From: a virus
Reading direction: 5' to 3' (one strand)
IMG/VR virus record: IMGVR_UViG_3300050119_000128
Span: 1-45,306 of that record
Length of the DNA stretch: 45,306 bases
Within the stretch, counting starts at the first letter, position 1; every line of letters begins with the position of its first letter. The notes under the pieces are model-generated. The model was not told the origin of the DNA, ran no database searches, and saw nothing but the letters and a program-made list of their open reading frames with translations. This document shows, in pieces, positions 15,796 to 21,558 of this stretch. A program made the position numbers and the translations under genes.

Positions 15796-16979
15796 CCCTG
15801 CGCTATTCCGAGGCCGAGATCGAAGCGCTGAAGGCGCGCACCGACGTGGCGCATCTCGCCGGCGAATTGGTGCGGTTGCGGCGCGGCTCGTCGAAATACG
15901 GCCGCGGCGGTTTCAAGGGTCCGTGCCCGTTCTGCGCCCGCGATCCGCAAAGCCGCTCGGCGGCGATGTTCGAATGCAGCGCGGCGGAATGGGTTTGCGC
16001 CAAATGTCCGGCCGGCGGCTCGGCCATCGATTTCATTATGAAGCGCGACGGCGTCGGCTTTCTCGCGGCGGTCGAGCGCCTGGGCGGCGCACCGCAGATC
16101 GACCAGGCCGCCGCGACGCGGATCGCGGCAGAGGCCGCCGCGCGGCGCGCGCGCAAGGAAGCGGACGACGCGCGCTATCGAGAGCGCGAGCGCAAGCGGC
16201 TCTTTGACAATTTCTGGCACCCCGCACCCCCGTGGCAGGGATCGCCCGTAGAAACCTACCTAACGAAGCGCGGGCTGCTGGTTCCGCCAGGCGCCAAACT
16301 GCGCTTTGCCAAGGATCTGCCGTTCTTTGCGAGCGGCGACGAATTCGCGCCGCAGGTGCTGCACCGCGGGCCGGCCATGCTGGCGGCGATCCTCGACGGC
16401 GCCGGCGTCTTTCGCGGGCTGCACATGACCTGGATCGACCTTTCGGCCGCGGCGGCGCCGCGCAACTGGAAAGCCGAGATTGTCGATCCGGACAGCGGAG
16501 AAGTGCTCAAAGCCAAGAAATCGCGCGGCACCAAGCAGGGCGGTTATATCGATCTCGGCGGCGCGCCGCAGGCGGGCGGCAGCTTCGATCGGCAGGTGTC
16601 CGGCGAGGGCATCGAGTCGACGCTGGCCGTCTACAGCGCCCTGGCGCGCGCCGGCCGCGATCTGTGCGGCATTGCCTGGCGCTGCGGCATCGATCTCGGC
16701 AATCTCGCCGGCATCGCTGCGCCCGGCAGCCGCGAGACGCATCCGACGCTCAAGGATCGCGCCGGGCGGGCGCGGCATATTCCCGGCCGCGCGCCGGACA
16801 TGCAATCCGCCGTCATGCCGGTTGCCGCCGGCGTTGGCGAGCTGGTGCTGCTCGGCGACGGCGACAGCGATCCTTACACCACGCAATGCGCCATGGCGCG
16901 CGCCGAGCAGCGCCACGCGGCGCCAGGCCGCAGCGTGCGCACCATCTGGCCGAAACCCGGCACCGATTTCAATTCGTGA
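15792..16979 (+). CDS. DNA primase, zinc-finger plus Toprim domain
   Basis: A 395-residue primase-like protein. The N-terminus has a CHC2-type zinc finger with CPFC (C45, C48), C62, then CAKC (C69, C72). A helical linker (120-160) is very basic and alanine-rich. The C-terminal half has Toprim features: SGEGIEST (about 270) supplies the glutamate, and LLGDGDSD (about 352-359) the D-x-D metal pair. It lacks a helicase; that part is the next gene. The ATG at 15792 overlaps the methyltransferase stop. Together the two genes would make RNA primers and open the phage origin just downstream. This split arrangement recalls P4 alpha divided in two. Confidence 0.87.
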   Translation: MTLRYSEAEIEALKARTDVAHLAGELVRLRRGSSKYGRGGFKGPCPFCARDPQSRSAAMFECSAAEWVCAKCPAGGSAIDFIMKRDGVGFLAAVERLGGAPQIDQAAATRIAAEAAARRARKEADDARYRERERKRLFDNFWHPAPPWQGSPVETYLTKRGLLVPPGAKLRFAKDLPFFASGDEFAPQVLHRGPAMLAAILDGAGVFRGLHMTWIDLSAAAAPRNWKAEIVDPDSGEVLKAKKSRGTKQGGYIDLGGAPQAGGSFDRQVSGEGIESTLAVYSALARAGRDLCGIAWRCGIDLGNLAGIAAPGSRETHPTLKDRAGRARHIPGRAPDMQSAVMPVAAGVGELVLLGDGDSDPYTTQCAMARAEQRHAAPGRSVRTIWPKPGTDFNS

Positions 16980-18850
16980 AAGACAATATCGTGGACGACG
17001 GCAAGCAGAACACCGACGCGGACATTGCGGCCCTTGTCGCCGGCGAAGCCTCGACTGCCCCGCACCCCGTATTTGATGGGGTCCCCGAAGGCTACCCGGA
17101 TGACGACAGCGAACCGCCGGCGCCGGATTTCGACGAGAGCGAGCGTCGCTCGATCGATATGTCCGCGGTTGCGGCTTGCGCCAACGAGCCACAGAACGAT
17201 ACCGGCAACGGCCAGCGCCTGCTGCGGCATTTCGGCGACCAATTGTTGAACGTGCGCGAGATGGCGAGCCAGCGCGAGGACGGATGGCATTTTTGGACCG
17301 GGCAGCGCTGGAAGCGCGAGGGCGGTAATGAATTCGCGATGCTGACGGCGCAGCGCTGCGCGCCGCGTATCCAGCTCGAAGCCGACTACATCACCGCGAC
17401 GCCGTCTGAGCGCATGACCATCGCGCGCGGCGACGACGCGCGCATCGACAAGGCGTCGATCGAAGCCAAGCCGCGCGAGCAGGTGACCGCAGCCGACAAG
17501 AAACAGATCGTCGCGCTCGAGCGCGCCATCGCCGACGGCGACGAGGCTGCGGCAGCGCTGAAAAAGCGGCAGTTGAACAGGCGCAAGTTCGCCGTGTCGT
17601 CCGGCAACGGCGGCAAGCTGCGCGAGATGCTCAAAGCCGCGCTGCCGCATCGCACGGCGGCGGTCGAGGACATGGACAAGGACCCGCTCGCCTTCAACGT
17701 CGGCAACGGCACGCTGCGCTTTTGCTGCTACGAGGTTGCCGATCCGGAATGTCCCGATCCCGATGAGCGGCGCACTATCGAGGTATGGACGGCGCGGCTC
17801 GACGCACATGACCCGGCTGACCTGATCTGCAACCTGGCGCCGGTCGATTACCGCTACGGCGCTGCCTGTCCGACCTTCACCGCCTCGCTTGCGCGCTTCC
17901 AGCCGAACGCGGCGAAGCGGCACTGGCTGCAAAAGTATTTCGGCTATGCCATCACCGGCTTGAACGGCGAGCAATGCATGCTGTTCAACTACGGCGGCGG
18001 CTCTAACTGGAAGTCGACCTGCGTCGAGATCGTCTCGCGCGTCATGGGCGACTATGCCGAAATGCTGAAATTCGAATCGCTGGCCGAGGTCGGCGAGACG
18101 ACGGGCGCCCAGGCCAATCCTGACTTCGCGCGGCTGCCGGGCAAGCGGCTGGTGCGCGTCGGCGAATCCAAGCGCGGCGTTGCCTTGAACGAAGGACTGA
18201 TCAAATCACTCACCAGCGGCGAGCCGTGGATCACGCGCTTCAATTTCGGCAATTTCTTTTCGTTCTATCCGACCTTCAAGCTGGCGCTGTCTGGCAACAA
18301 CAAGCCAGACATTGGCGGCGTCGATCACGGCATCTGGCGGCGCATCCGCTTCATGATCTGGCCGGTGACTATCGCCGACGCCGAGCGGCGCGAGATGGAC
18401 GACGTGCTCGCCGAATTGTGGAATGAGCGCGAGGGCATCCTTGCCTGGCTGGTCGATGGAGCGCTGATGTATCTGAGCGAAGGGCTCAAGCCGCCGCAGG
18501 AAATTCTCGACGAAACGGAAGAATATCGCGAGGAGCAGGACACGATCGGCGGCTTCATGACCGCCTGCGTCACCGTGCAGGAGCCGAAGGACGGCGTGAC
18601 CGATCCGCCCTACGTACCGGCGCAGGAGATGTTCGACGCCTTCGTGCGCTACTGCGAGGCAAACGGATTGCGCGCCTGGAAGCAAAAAGCGTTCGGCGCG
18701 GCGCTGTCGCAGAAAGGTCTTATTAGGGATCGCAAGTCCACCTTGCGCCGCTATCTGTGGGTGGCACTGCACGACGTGCCGGCGGCGCGCTCGCATCGCG
18801 CCAGCCGCGAGGAACCGCCGCACCCGGCGGACGATGAGGTGCCGAGATGA
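16976..18850 (+). CDS. P4-alpha/D5-type replicative helicase (SF3)
   Basis: A 624-residue protein starting at GTG 16976 in a GTGA overlap with the primase stop. Residues 1-60 are acidic and probably disordered. The centre is D5_N-like, followed by an SF3 helicase core with Walker A GGGSNWKST (340-348), then RLVRVGESKRG as motif B region, and LALSGNNKPDI (about 435-445) as motif C with the sensor asparagine. In Walker A the usual G before KS (as in GNGKS) is W, which is unusual. The C-terminal 60 residues are probably winged-helix (YCEANGLRAWKQKAFGAAL) for DNA binding. It would unwind the origin, probably the iteron array starting five bases after the gene. The frame extends open far upstream (16232) only as a shadow of the primase. 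Confidence 0.88.
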   Translation: MKDNIVDDGKQNTDADIAALVAGEASTAPHPVFDGVPEGYPDDDSEPPAPDFDESERRSIDMSAVAACANEPQNDTGNGQRLLRHFGDQLLNVREMASQREDGWHFWTGQRWKREGGNEFAMLTAQRCAPRIQLEADYITATPSERMTIARGDDARIDKASIEAKPREQVTAADKKQIVALERAIADGDEAAAALKKRQLNRRKFAVSSGNGGKLREMLKAALPHRTAAVEDMDKDPLAFNVGNGTLRFCCYEVADPECPDPDERRTIEVWTARLDAHDPADLICNLAPVDYRYGAACPTFTASLARFQPNAAKRHWLQKYFGYAITGLNGEQCMLFNYGGGSNWKSTCVEIVSRVMGDYAEMLKFESLAEVGETTGAQANPDFARLPGKRLVRVGESKRGVALNEGLIKSLTSGEPWITRFNFGNFFSFYPTFKLALSGNNKPDIGGVDHGIWRRIRFMIWPVTIADAERREMDDVLAELWNEREGILAWLVDGALMYLSEGLKPPQEILDETEEYREEQDTIGGFMTACVTVQEPKDGVTDPPYVPAQEMFDAFVRYCEANGLRAWKQKAFGAALSQKGLIRDRKSTLRRYLWVALHDVPAARSHRASREEPPHPADDEVPR

Positions 18851-18854
18851 GGCT

Positions 18855-19134
18855 ATGACGCAATGACGCATCGATGACGCATGGATTTTTCATGCGTCAT
18901 GGCAAAAAGGCAAGAGAACGTCGAGGCTTAAGCGGAGGTATGACGCAATGACGCATGATTTCCGCGCGCGTACATAAGCGAACGGGGTTCGGGGTGGGTA
19001 AAACTTTTTCTCGCATATAGAAAACTAAGATCATGCGTCATTGCGTCATCAATCAAAGGAAGTGTTTGAAATTAAAAGATGAATGACTATGACGCATCAT
19101 TTTTTCATGCGTCATCGATGCGTCATTGCGTCAT
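18855..19134. promoter_or_regulatory. Candidate replication origin: nested inverted TGACGCA iterons
   Basis: Twelve copies of TGACGCA lie in 280 bases, six direct (18856, 18864, 18875, 18941, 18949, 19090) and six inverted (18893, 19034, 19042, 19108, 19119, 19127). Block 18855-18900 and block 19089-19134, 46 bases each, are inverted copies of one another differing only in the loop. Inside them, 18940-18959 and 19030-19049 are exact 20-base inverted repeats. Each outer block can form a stem of ATGACGCAT/ATGCGTCAT. The centre is AT-rich around 19010-19030. Position next to an SF3 helicase gene is that of a P4-type origin. It could instead be a repressor operator. Confidence 0.7.
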
Positions 19135-19162
19135 AGATCAAAATAGAAGGATGGAGGGACAA

Positions 19163-19408
19163 ATGCATAATTGCTATCCAAACTGTACTTGTAGCAGCCG
19201 CGACACCGGGTTTTTGGTGCATGACGAATGGTACGACGACGGGATCGTTAAATGTTACGTGCTTGTCTGTGACGTATGCGGCGCCCGCGGCCATACTCAG
19301 GTGGTTTGCCGCCGTCCGTGGCCCGTGTCTTATCGTGATCAGCGTGCCATCGGTCAGACGCCTCCGGTGCAGCAAACCGTCTCCTGCCCACAATCGAAAG
19401 TCCAATAA
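19163..19408 (+). CDS. Cysteine-rich small protein, possible zinc ribbon
   Basis: An 81-residue protein with CYPNCTC (residues 4-10) and CDVCGARGH (about 41-49), plus CYVLVC just before, a pattern fit for one or two zinc sites. GGAGGGAC lies three bases before the ATG at 19163. The frame is open back to 19079 but that part reads through iterons, so the internal start is preferred. It is the first gene after the origin-like array. Function unknown. Confidence 0.65.
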   Translation: MHNCYPNCTCSSRDTGFLVHDEWYDDGIVKCYVLVCDVCGARGHTQVVCRRPWPVSYRDQRAIGQTPPVQQTVSCPQSKVQ

Positions 19409-19432
19409 TTAAACTTCTGCGGAGCTACCGCC

Positions 19433-20212
19433 ATGAAATCGATGGATATCGAGCTGTTGTTGCAGTGGGCCGTCAACGATGAACTGCCGAAGGGTAACCA
19501 CGTGGAAAACTCCGTGTGGCGTTCCATCGATAAATACATGCCGCACAATGCGCCGGTGGACAAATTTAATGCTGAACGCGCGCGCGTCGCGGCAGTGGCG
19601 CGTGCGCGGATCAATCAATTGAGTTGTATCTACGTTCCTGGTGAACCTCACCCCGACGCTGTGCTGATCGGCAAGGCAGTAAAATCGCTCAATTACCACG
19701 CTGGTATCGACGATGAAAAAAGCATTCTTGCGCTGCTGGGCACTCTCGCGAATATCGACCGGCGCGATCCGCAAGGTCGGTTGCCTTGCGTGACGGTGGC
19801 GATGGCGGTGACGCCGAATGTCGCTGGATTGCTTATGACCTGCGCGATCTTGAAGCGACGCCCGTTTCTCTCGCCTACACCGCCAAAACCAATGCCTGTG
19901 CGGCGCACGAATGGACGGCCGTTGGCGTTGCGTGAAGATGTCGACGGCAATTTGATCGAGGCAACCGTTCAACATTGGCGCAATGATTATGTTGGCTCGC
20001 CGCGATGCCCGCTGGAATGGGGCAACCCGACGATTGAGGATGTTGCCGAAGAGCGAGCCGAATACGCGATCTGGCGGCGCGGGCTGGCTCTCCTTGCCAA
20101 ACAGTTAACGCGAGAATTAGCGAATCACATCGCTCTTCCGCCGGCCGCTGAGATCAATCCGTGGAGTGCCCCGCCTCGTCGGCAGCCGAGACTCTGGCGC
20201 GGCGCGGCGTGA
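19433..20212 (+). CDS. Hypothetical phage protein with MDIELLLQWA start
   Basis: A 259-residue protein with GGAGC before the ATG. The N-terminus, MKSMDIELLLQWAVNDELPKG, matches the broken gene at 4619. The rest has no recognised domain; it includes LNYHAGIDDEKSILALLGTL (about 85-105) and EDVAEERAEYAIWRRGLALL (about 200-220). Small proteins starting with this I-D-I-E-x-L-L-x-W-A pattern are, as far as I can recall, seen in other alphaproteobacterial prophages. The last 13 codons (PPRRQPRLWRGAA) lie inside the dispersed repeat shared with 5631-5790, so the 3' end was probably replaced by insertion or recombination of that repeat. Confidence 0.7.
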   Translation: MKSMDIELLLQWAVNDELPKGNHVENSVWRSIDKYMPHNAPVDKFNAERARVAAVARARINQLSCIYVPGEPHPDAVLIGKAVKSLNYHAGIDDEKSILALLGTLANIDRRDPQGRLPCVTVAMAVTPNVAGLLMTCAILKRRPFLSPTPPKPMPVRRTNGRPLALREDVDGNLIEATVQHWRNDYVGSPRCPLEWGNPTIEDVAEERAEYAIWRRGLALLAKQLTRELANHIALPPAAEINPWSAPPRRQPRLWRGAA

Positions 20213-20311
20213 AAACCCTTATTTTATCGGCAAAATGTCGCTGGGTCGGTGGTATGGCTGATTTTCTTTGATTATGGCGCTGGCTTTTGCGACAAGGTGC
20301 GCGTTATGAAA
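20158..20311 (+). repeat. Dispersed copy of the 5.6-kb repeat tail
   Basis: Nearly identical to 5631-5790 (tail of tandem copy 1), including TCGGCAGCCGAGACTCTGG, GTGAAAACCCTTATTTTATC and CTGGCTTTTGCGACAAGGTG. It lacks the C-rich and hairpin half. The same short frame as in the tandem copies (here GTG 20161 to TGA 20269, SAAETLARRGV and on) is intact. It begins inside the 3' end of the gene at 19433 and ends in a promoter-like sequence. Confidence 0.9.
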
Positions 20312-20315
20312 TAAT
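20287..20315 (+). promoter_or_regulatory. Possible promoter at the end of the dispersed repeat
   Basis: TTGCGA (20287-20292), 17-base spacer, AATAAT (20310-20315). In the 5.7- and 6.1-kb copies the -10 reads GATGAT, so this copy has the better match. It would drive the genes from 20376 and, through coupling, the packaging module, after the terminator at 20325-20357. Confidence 0.4.
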
Positions 20316-20324
20316 GGAATTTAG

Positions 20325-20357
20325 GCGCCCGGAAAGGATCATCCTTCCGGGCGTTTT
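20325..20357 (+). terminator. Rho-independent terminator/attenuator
   Basis: Stem cgcccggaa (20326-20334) with ttccgggcg (20345-20353), extended by gga/tcc around a short loop, then TTTT (20354-20357). It stands between the promoter-like site and the gene at 20376, with only about 40 transcribed bases before it, so an attenuator is as likely as the terminator of the gene at 19433. Confidence 0.75.
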
Positions 20358-20375
20358 CATATTCAGGATCGATAT

Positions 20376-20612
20376 ATGACGCCAGCGCAATATGCCGCCG
20401 CAAAGCCAGGCGACGTTGTGCTGTTGCGCGCCATCGTGTTTCCGCGCGGCGCTCGGCACGGTGCCGACGCCGGCGATCATGTGCAGGTGACTGTGCGCGG
20501 GGGGGCAACCTTTTATGCGCCGCTGCGCGAGATCGTCGATATGCAGTCGGCGAGCGATGCCGATGCCGAGGCGACATTGATTTCCTTGTGCAGTGAGCGC
20601 GGACGTTCCTAG
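20376..20612 (+). CDS. Small hypothetical protein
   Basis: A 78-residue protein, MTPAQYAAAKPGDVVLLRAI onward, with a likely beta-barrel-like pattern (GDVVLLRAIVFPRG, DHVQVTVRGGATFY). Its start lies in the leader CATATTCAGGATCGATAT, which resembles that before the DUF6745-like gene at 12234. First gene after the terminator at 20325-20357. Function unknown. Confidence 0.65.
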   Translation: MTPAQYAAAKPGDVVLLRAIVFPRGARHGADAGDHVQVTVRGGATFYAPLREIVDMQSASDADAEATLISLCSERGRS

Positions 20613-20639
20613 CGCGCGTTTAGTCATTCGGAGAGAGAC

Positions 20640-20834
20640 ATGGCCTGCCGTTGCGCCGAGCGAATGCTGGCGATGCGGACGGCCGTCAAGGCGATGGTGC
20701 ATGGCGACGTGCAGGCCGTCGGCAAGGAAGCCGGCTTCGTGGTGCGCACACTCGCCGAGGATACGCGCAGCGGCGATCTGCGCCGTGCCGCTGTGCAGCA
20801 GCTTTCTCGCTTGCGTGCCGGCGTGCGGCGCTGA
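20640..20834 (+). CDS. Small hypothetical head-module protein
   Basis: A 64-residue helical basic protein (RCAERMLAMRTAVKAMVHGD) with GGAGAGAG before the ATG. It overlaps the next gene by TGATG. It lies at the border of the structural genes and small proteins of this kind occur near gpZ/terminase genes in lambda-like prophages. Function unknown. Confidence 0.6.
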   Translation: MACRCAERMLAMRTAVKAMVHGDVQAVGKEAGFVVRTLAEDTRSGDLRRAAVQQLSRLRAGVRR

Positions 20835-21415
20835 TGGCCGGCGATCTGGTCATCGGTCTCGATGCCAGCGGCATCGCACGCATTGAAGCGGCGATGCAAG
20901 CCGCTGGTGGCAGGGCGCATGACGCCATCCGCCGCGCGGTCAATTGGACCGGCGACCGGACGCGCACGAAGGTCGTAAAGGCGCTGACAAAGCAGACGGG
21001 CCTCAAGCACGCCGTTCTGCAACGCGCGGTGGTGCCGACGCGGGCAAATTACGGCGCGCTTGAATATCGCATGCGCGCCCGTGGCGGCAACATCGCGCTG
21101 AAGTATTTTGGCGCGCGCGAGACGCAAGCTGGCGTCACCGCAGCGCCGTGGGGTGAAAGGCATCTCTACGCCGCCGCGTTTACTCGGGGTGGTCAATTCC
21201 CTAATCGCGTGCCGATCCCTGGCTTGCACGGACAGGTCTTCCAGCGTGTCGACGGCACGCGGCTGCCGATCGAGAAGGTGAAGTCCGGATTGTTTATCCC
21301 GCAAGAGATGGTCAAGGGCGAGACGGCAGCAGCATTTGAAGAGACCGTCGCGGCCATCCTTCCGGGCCGCGTCGAACATGAGGTGGGTGCGATCCTGAAA
21401 GGGATCGTTCGGTAG
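20834..21415 (+). CDS. Minor tail protein Z-like (tail completion)
   Basis: A 193-residue protein with GIARIEAAMQAAGGRAHDAI, RAVNWTGDRTRTKVVKALTKQTGLK and a C-terminal GLFIPQEMVKGETAAAF, a pattern like lambda gpZ/GPZ family tail proteins that complete the tail for joining to the head. The ATG at 20834 is set by TGATG overlap. Such a gene normally lies after the capsid genes; here it precedes the terminase. An HK97 gp10-like assignment is the alternative. Confidence 0.6.
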   Translation: MAGDLVIGLDASGIARIEAAMQAAGGRAHDAIRRAVNWTGDRTRTKVVKALTKQTGLKHAVLQRAVVPTRANYGALEYRMRARGGNIALKYFGARETQAGVTAAPWGERHLYAAAFTRGGQFPNRVPIPGLHGQVFQRVDGTRLPIEKVKSGLFIPQEMVKGETAAAFEETVAAILPGRVEHEVGAILKGIVR

Positions 21416-21558
21416 CACCCTCACGGGTCCCTCCTGCCACCCCCGCCTCGTGCGGCGCTTAGGCGGCCCGGACTTTCGCCAGTTTGGCAGATCAAAAATA
21501 TGGGTTGACGCTGTTGACGGAAACGACAACCACGGTTGACGCGCCGCATGCGGCGGTC

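Follow-up and report, generated by a model that had tools for sequence, protein, structure and literature searches.

The array of TGACGCA sites directly downstream of the helicase gene is very probably a phage replication origin used by a self-loading D5-type helicase. The window that we analyzed is a whole virus record of 45,306 nucleotides, a metagenomic contig classed as linear. Our reading is based on the symmetry of the array, its adjacency to the helicase gene, the occurrence of the same layout at the same place under other words in relatives, and the covariation of the word with the winged helix of the helicase. From the comparative sequence data, we infer that the iterons are bound by the C-terminal winged helix of the neighboring helicase.

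Twelve sites mirrored about a single dyad

TGACGCA sites are overrepresented and concentrated in the array. There are 20 copies in the window compared to 8.96 expected, and none of 100 shuffles reached 20. Twelve of the 20 are within 18856-19133, six per strand. The outer and inner pairs of arms share a single dyad at 18994.5, and reflection about it places each of the six plus-strand sites exactly on one of the six minus-strand sites. With plus-strand sites indicated by > and minus-strand sites by <, the offsets from the dyad are > -136, > -128, > -117, < -98, > -51, and > -43 in the left half, and < +43, < +51, > +98, < +117, < +128, and < +136 in the right half. The inner arms are 100% complementary over 20 bases. 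The stop codon of the helicase gene ends at 18850. The preliminary description of this DNA was correct about the twelve sites, the exact inner repeats, the mirror symmetry at two levels, and the start of the array five bases past the helicase gene.

Two other features that had been described, outer 46-base inverted blocks and an AT-rich centre, held in part. The outer blocks are complementary at 40 of 46 positions (88% over 48 bases for arms at 18853-18900 and 19089-19136), but they are not uniform runs. Each has three sites in one direction and one in the opposite direction, so each outer block folds on itself too. The 70 bases separating the inner arms are 51% A+T, compared to the window average of 36%, and it is the right part of this centre that is A+T-rich (Table 1). 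The left part (18960-18999) is 35% A+T and contains CGCGCGCG and CGGGGTTCGGGG. The GC skew, which had been suggested as a check, is weak support at best for an origin: the cumulative skew of the whole window peaks at 19501-21500, loosely near the array.

Table 1. Positions of the array, its parts, and associated genes and elements (positions in the window unless preceded by a contig name).
Feature	Position	Strand	Basis
Origin candidate, 12 TGACGCA sites mirrored about 18994.5	18855-19134	.	Sequence count and symmetry
Left outer block, sites > > > < (18856, 18864, 18875 on +; 18893 on -)	18855-18900	.	
Left inner arm, tandem pair ATGACGCAATGACGCAT	18940-18959	+	
G element CGGGGTTCGGGG, polar, ends at dyad; candidate primase start site	18983-18994	+	
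A+T-rich centre part (73% A+T), candidate unwinding element	19000-19029	.	
Right inner arm, exact inverted copy of left inner arm	19030-19049	-	
Right outer block, sites > < < < (19090 on +; 19108, 19119, 19127 on -)	19089-19134	.	
TOPRIM/CHC2-zinc-finger (DnaG-like) primase gene, 395 aa	15792-16979	+	Pfam PF01807, 1.6e-9
One-mismatch opposite-strand G-element copy, in primase gene	16220-16231	-	
Helicase gene, probable initiator, with GTG start; product of 624 aa (D5_N / pox D5-SaPI5 Rep fold)	16976-18850	+	Pfam, AF2, VIA-align
Exact opposite-strand G-element copy, early in helicase gene	17058-17069	-	
Winged-helix domain codons, residues 785-845 (872-aa numbering)	18584-18766	+	Covariation, AF2 model
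Recognition helix and wing, residues 816-839, strongest covariation with iteron word	18677-18748	+	Covariation
L007 stand-alone winged-helix protein region, directly before TGACGCA array	L007:3352-4007		

The probable initiator helicase and the neighboring primase

The window contains genes for an integrase, helicase, methyltransferase, terminase, portal, protease, major head, and baseplate. The end of the primase gene overlaps the start of the helicase gene at GTGA, and the helicase open reading frame listed from 16232 is a backward extension of the helicase frame through the primase gene. The primase also matched Toprim_3 (0.0003), below the cut-off of that Pfam model.

The helicase has a D5_N domain (PF08706, 6.5e-13, Pfam) and a D5-type AAA+ fold, and belongs to the D5_N / Primase_Cterm helicase family. 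Its AF2 model (pLDDT of 94.2) matched ASFV PrimPol, the SaPI5 primase-helicase (7om0, Z 27.5), and vaccinia D5 (Z 26.6) using VIA-align, and the papilloma E1 fold with a Z of 13.3. No P4 alpha structure was among the fold matches listed, which is not evidence against a relation to P4 alpha. The C-terminus of the model is a winged helix, with helices at residues 488-501 and 509-518 and strands at 522-524, 531-533, and 535-537 (model numbering). The Walker A motif is GGGSNWKST in the window and GTGSNWKST in L013, with a tryptophan in place of the pre-lysine glycine that is retained by the six phage relatives covering the region.

Inverted arrays follow helicase genes in relatives

The 17-mer ATGACGCAATGACGCAT was found in eight viral contigs. 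In L006 and L010, the array follows a helicase whose matched C-terminal part is 70 and 74% identical, respectively, to that of the window helicase. In L009, it follows an AEP-fused D5 helicase with 26% identity (tblastn) and 34% core identity to the window helicase. At L008:4157-4385, the same iteron word follows a VapE-type helicase gene; this helicase belongs to another family and has a C-terminal domain of its own. L011 has the 17-mer plus one more TGACGCA approximately 100 bases further. Two of the 17-mer contigs (L005 and L012) have one copy amid other sequence and look like chance.

An inverted array downstream of the helicase gene is common among relatives. A query with the single helicase protein found no relative in viral_contigs and one (L013) in genome_contigs. 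Using alignment queries, we took 80 of 429, 80 of 578, and 80 of 578 confirmed relatives, in overlapping sets. Together with phage records and the 17-mer loci, these gave 251 helicase ends, or 154 after a de-replication that was imperfect (L132 and L235 repeat the L062 contig within the 154). We scanned from -40 to +600 of each helicase stop for a recurring 7-mer, with a premium for sites on both strands, and compared the scores to those of 50 dinucleotide shuffles. There was an inverted array in 104 of the 154 loci (0 of 50 shuffles reached the score), with a median span of 295 bases and a median start at +39. The median array score was 10. It was 5 in a stretch of equal length from the helicase gene and 5 in one further downstream, and for each of these controls there were 26 loci (of 154) in which the array did not score higher. 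A second filter reduced the 104 array-bearing loci to 99.

The other 50 loci, including L019, had no significant array within -40 to +600 of the helicase stop. Some had a mis-set gene end (e.g., L033, L057, L058, L061, L063, L107, and L230) and some show a more distant array (L015 at +1885, L072 at +1330, and L145 at +1653), and these account for only part of the 50.

The words in these arrays vary by lineage. They include TGACGC, TGTCGGG, GGTGACG, TGTAGGG (as in L027), GCGAGGG, GGGAGGC, AGGGACG, GGACAGA, GGGCTTG, GACGGGC, and others; that of L013 is ATGTCGGG. A search for the same iteron near related helicase genes, as had been suggested, thus recovered the inverted array at the same place, but with a word that differs from lineage to lineage.

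The positions of the sites are kept when the word changes, at least among nearer relatives. Using one-to-one matching of sites with a 10-base tolerance, 98 loci matched a mean of 6.9 of the 12 window positions, compared to 4.3 for randomized sites. At least 10 of the 12 positions were kept in 17 of the 98 loci (counting the window), with five different words (TGACGC, TGTCGGG, GGTGACG, TGTAGGG, and GCGAGGG). Because only 17 of the 98 loci reach this level, the exact 12-site template belongs to the nearer relatives; beyond them, only the general plan holds. In a looser test of symmetry, the observed mirror pairing was reached in at most 5 of 100 randomizations for 45 of the 98 loci. The best explanation for these comparisons is that the word is lineage-specific, and that word and reading head (mostly its wing) are rewritten jointly on a 12-position scaffold that stays the same.

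The iteron word covaries with the winged helix

We compared the similarity of iterons, measured as shared recurrent 6-mers of the arrays, to the identity of different parts of the helicase. This set contained 92 loci (the 99 minus six with missing columns and L171, which was in the wrong reading frame). The partial correlation between iteron similarity and winged-helix identity, given core identity, was 0.332 and was reached in 0 of 2000 permutations. Permutation confined to core-identity clusters, of which one contains 80 loci, likewise reached it in 0 of 2000 runs. The partial correlation between iteron similarity and core identity, given the winged helix, was 0.033.

The signal was strongest in the recognition helix and wing. 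The best sliding stretch of 24 residues was 816-839 (0.345), which corresponds to model residues 507-530 (recognition helix, strand, and wing); the best outside of the winged helix was 0.184. We also matched loci for core identity and asked whether a shared iteron was accompanied by higher identity of a given stretch. This was so in 63 of 71 loci for residues 816-839. The count was 50 in the first half of the winged-helix domain, 41 in the C-terminal tail, and 37 and 32 in two N-terminal stretches (of 71 in each case). The C-terminal tail is nearer to the array in the DNA and yet has the weaker signal, indicating that linkage alone fails to give this pattern. In a run that included the wrong-frame L171, the strongest three single columns were 837-839, and 12 of the top 25 columns were in 800-850 (50 of 416 columns; hypergeometric 4e-6).

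Individual pairs of loci illustrate the covariation and also an exception to it. L023 and L013 have 83% core and 56% winged-helix identity, L172 and L163 have 79% core and 36% winged-helix identity, and the members of each pair have different words. The window and L009 have the word in common, with 34% core and only 20% winged-helix identity; this pair does not fit a simple winged-helix-to-word code.

One contig has the array without a helicase. In L007 (12,009 bases), an array that is 82.6% identical to that of the window is preceded by a protein of 132 residues. The region from residue 52 to 122 is similar to the L009 winged helix (36% identity, 3e-10), and the model of the protein is a winged helix (pLDDT of 90 to 97 per ten-residue block for residues 41-120) whose closest solved fold is the RFX DNA-binding domain (Z 9.4 and 8.9). 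L007 is a mosaic of window-like segments, and the aligned segments omit the helicase and most of the large terminase. It is the only contig of its type that we found, and may be a derived element or a faulty assembly.

A stand-alone winged-helix protein beside the same array would be in keeping with sites that are operators for the winged helix or another phage regulator, with replication starting elsewhere, and intergenic inverted repeated words can indeed be operators. However, we found no sigma-70-like promoter or terminator in 18600-19500 (other promoter types were outside the scan), and there are twelve sites across 280 bp on a fixed mirror template. In addition, the covariation is with the helicase's own C-terminal domain, and the array follows the helicase gene in distant phages too. 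We consider it unlikely that the sites are operators.

We also considered that the array is an origin but that another protein reads the iterons, the covariation with the winged helix reflecting shared ancestry or linkage. Everything nearby is shared among related loci, and relatedness can inflate partial Mantel tests. This explanation seems very unlikely given that the signal peaks in the recognition helix and wing and drops in the tail nearer the array, that the matched comparison singled out residues 816-839 over the tail and the N-terminal stretches, and that the within-cluster permutations never reached the observed value. Lastly, the genes for the small and large terminase subunits are 2.3-5 kb downstream and the cohesive ends of RcapNL adjoin its array, but a packaging (cos/pac) or recombination site is hardly credible since the record of phage A2 labels the same place rep_origin, and since in relatives, too, the array comes after the helicase gene and varies in concert with the helicase.

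We therefore favor an origin read by the neighboring helicase, and suggest how it might work. The winged helices of the helicase would bind the iterons, each half of the array would collect one hexamer (six sites for six subunits), and the dyad would lie between the two opposed hexamers. Melting would take place in the right, A+T-rich portion of the centre, and the neighboring TOPRIM primase would start at the CGGGGTNCGGGG elements, whose strand differs between the two sides of the start point. The assignment of six sites to each hexamer is arithmetic, and the arrays of relatives have 5-14 sites, with a median of 10. SV40 T antigen and papilloma E1 are SF3 helicases that load themselves in pairs of hexamers at short inverted sites. 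In these proteins, the DNA-binding domain is N-terminal (PMC7581432), in contrast to the C-terminal domain of the window helicase.

Since the scaffold persists under different words, and the switch of word can be traced to a small part of the helicase, origin recognition should be predictable from sequence. Recognition by self-loading helicases becomes testable by domain swaps, and the question is raised of how twelve sites get rewritten together.

Comparison to described origins

The array had been described as a candidate P4-type origin. An origin candidate with iterons read by the neighboring helicase does fit the comparative evidence, and the window helicase, like P4 alpha, is SF3-type with a C-terminal winged-helix domain. 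Literal membership in the P4 type is not supported by the features tested. P4 alpha has its primase fused in the same polypeptide, in contrast to the window, in which the TOPRIM/CHC2 primase is a separate, unfused gene. A second iteron region (crr) was not found; there are only single TGACGCA sites elsewhere in the 45,306-base, possibly incomplete, record. The P4 type I iteron word, which we take to be GGTGAACAG, has no copy with one or no mismatch inside 18855-19134. Across the window, GGTGAACAG occurs within one mismatch 16 times compared to 5.6 expected; these copies are scattered, mostly on the minus strand, and possibly due to codon usage. The fold relatives of the winged-helix tail of ASFV C962R are the P4 alpha origin-binding domain and RFX1, as stated in an excerpt of PMC10516667.

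The nearest described organization is that of the SaPI/PICI Rep origins and of Lactobacillus phage A2. In the published description, PICI origins directly follow the 3' end of rep, the initiator gene, and have an AT-rich region with a set of iterons on each side; the pri-rep-ori segment drives plasmid replication, and the iteron organization is stated to be common to no other known bacterial replicon (PMC6092414). The window array is likewise directly 3' of the helicase gene and has two iteron sets around a region that is A+T-rich, here only in the right centre. The helicase has the fold of SaPI5 Rep, and pri adjoins rep in both. Cch2, of this helicase family, has a C-terminal domain that binds iterons downstream of the cch2 gene (excerpt of PMC7581432). 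In the window, the covariation of word and winged helix would suit binding through that domain.

There are also differences from SaPI/PICI. The window is a phage with its own terminase, portal, protease, major head, and baseplate/tail genes and not a satellite, and its separate primase is TOPRIM and not AEP. The 12-site mirror, the nested opposite-strand sites, and the polar G element do not appear in the SaPI/PICI descriptions as excerpted. In phage A2 (AJ251789), a rep_origin is annotated from the end of the D5-type primase gene and there is an inverted ACGGGAG array at that place; its helicase is AEP-fused, its word is different, and its array has no G element.

Based on the match to the organization of PICI and phage A2 origins, we conclude that the window fits a described plan, and that ordinary phages widely share the iteron plan known from phage satellites. 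The additions to the known plan are the 12-site scaffold kept under replacement of the word, the covariation of the wing, and the polar G element. These three were not found in the literature searched, and key SaPI and P4 papers lay outside that search. A search on the iteron words themselves gave nothing on replication by title.

A polar G element at the dyad

The G element has opposite orientations in and upstream of the array. In the window, CGGGGTNCGGGG is on the plus strand at the dyad and on the minus strand in the helicase and primase genes (Table 1). Among 97 relatives, there were 17 exact copies on the plus strand and 1 on the minus strand within arrays. Upstream of arrays, there were 31 on the minus strand and 1 on the plus strand, the latter 29 bases past the stop in L192; there was none downstream. 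The upstream copies were distributed among the three reading frames (16, 7, and 4) or were outside the helicase frame (4), which argues against a purely protein-level cause, although the 16 in the same frame may be homologous codons.

Of 92 arrays, 37 had a relaxed form of the element (CGGGG, 1-4 bases, GGGG) on the plus strand and 3 had it on the minus strand; shuffles gave 7 at the most. We also located the exact copies in the window and in four complete phage genomes. All 7 were in the replication module (approximately 8% of the length), and two of the four genomes had none. In arrays, the element tends to start approximately 10 or approximately 105-122 bases before the dyad, with exceptions.

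The presence of the G element was associated with the type of upstream protein. It was found in 24 of 48 arrays with an upstream primase nearest to those of the window, RcapNL, Pthi1, Pan4, or R4C, and 1 of the 20 arrays preceded by an AmM-1/RR1-A-like protein had it (Fisher 0.0003, uncorrected for relatedness); that is, the AmM-1-class protein accompanies arrays mostly without the element. For the remaining 30 of the 98, the upstream region gave an AEP in 2 and no match in 19, and was too short in 9. In phage AmM-1, the gene preceding the helicase (L017:1790-2980) is annotated as a DnaA C-terminal domain protein.

Copies of CGGGGTNCGGGG on opposite strands flanking the start point would suit primase start sites, and the element offers a candidate start signal for primase. 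It could alternatively be read as a G-quadruplex or as a protein site. A two-protein origin code, in which a fixed 12-site mirror serves two hexamers, the word is rewritten with the wing, and CGGGGTNCGGGG is the start signal for primase, is a tentative proposal that we lean somewhat against.

The left part of the centre also has an alternating CGCGCG stretch at 18960-18975. Stretches of this type recur centrally in the arrays of many relatives, and GCGCGCGT was present in 15 of 92 masked arrays compared to 1.7 in shuffles.
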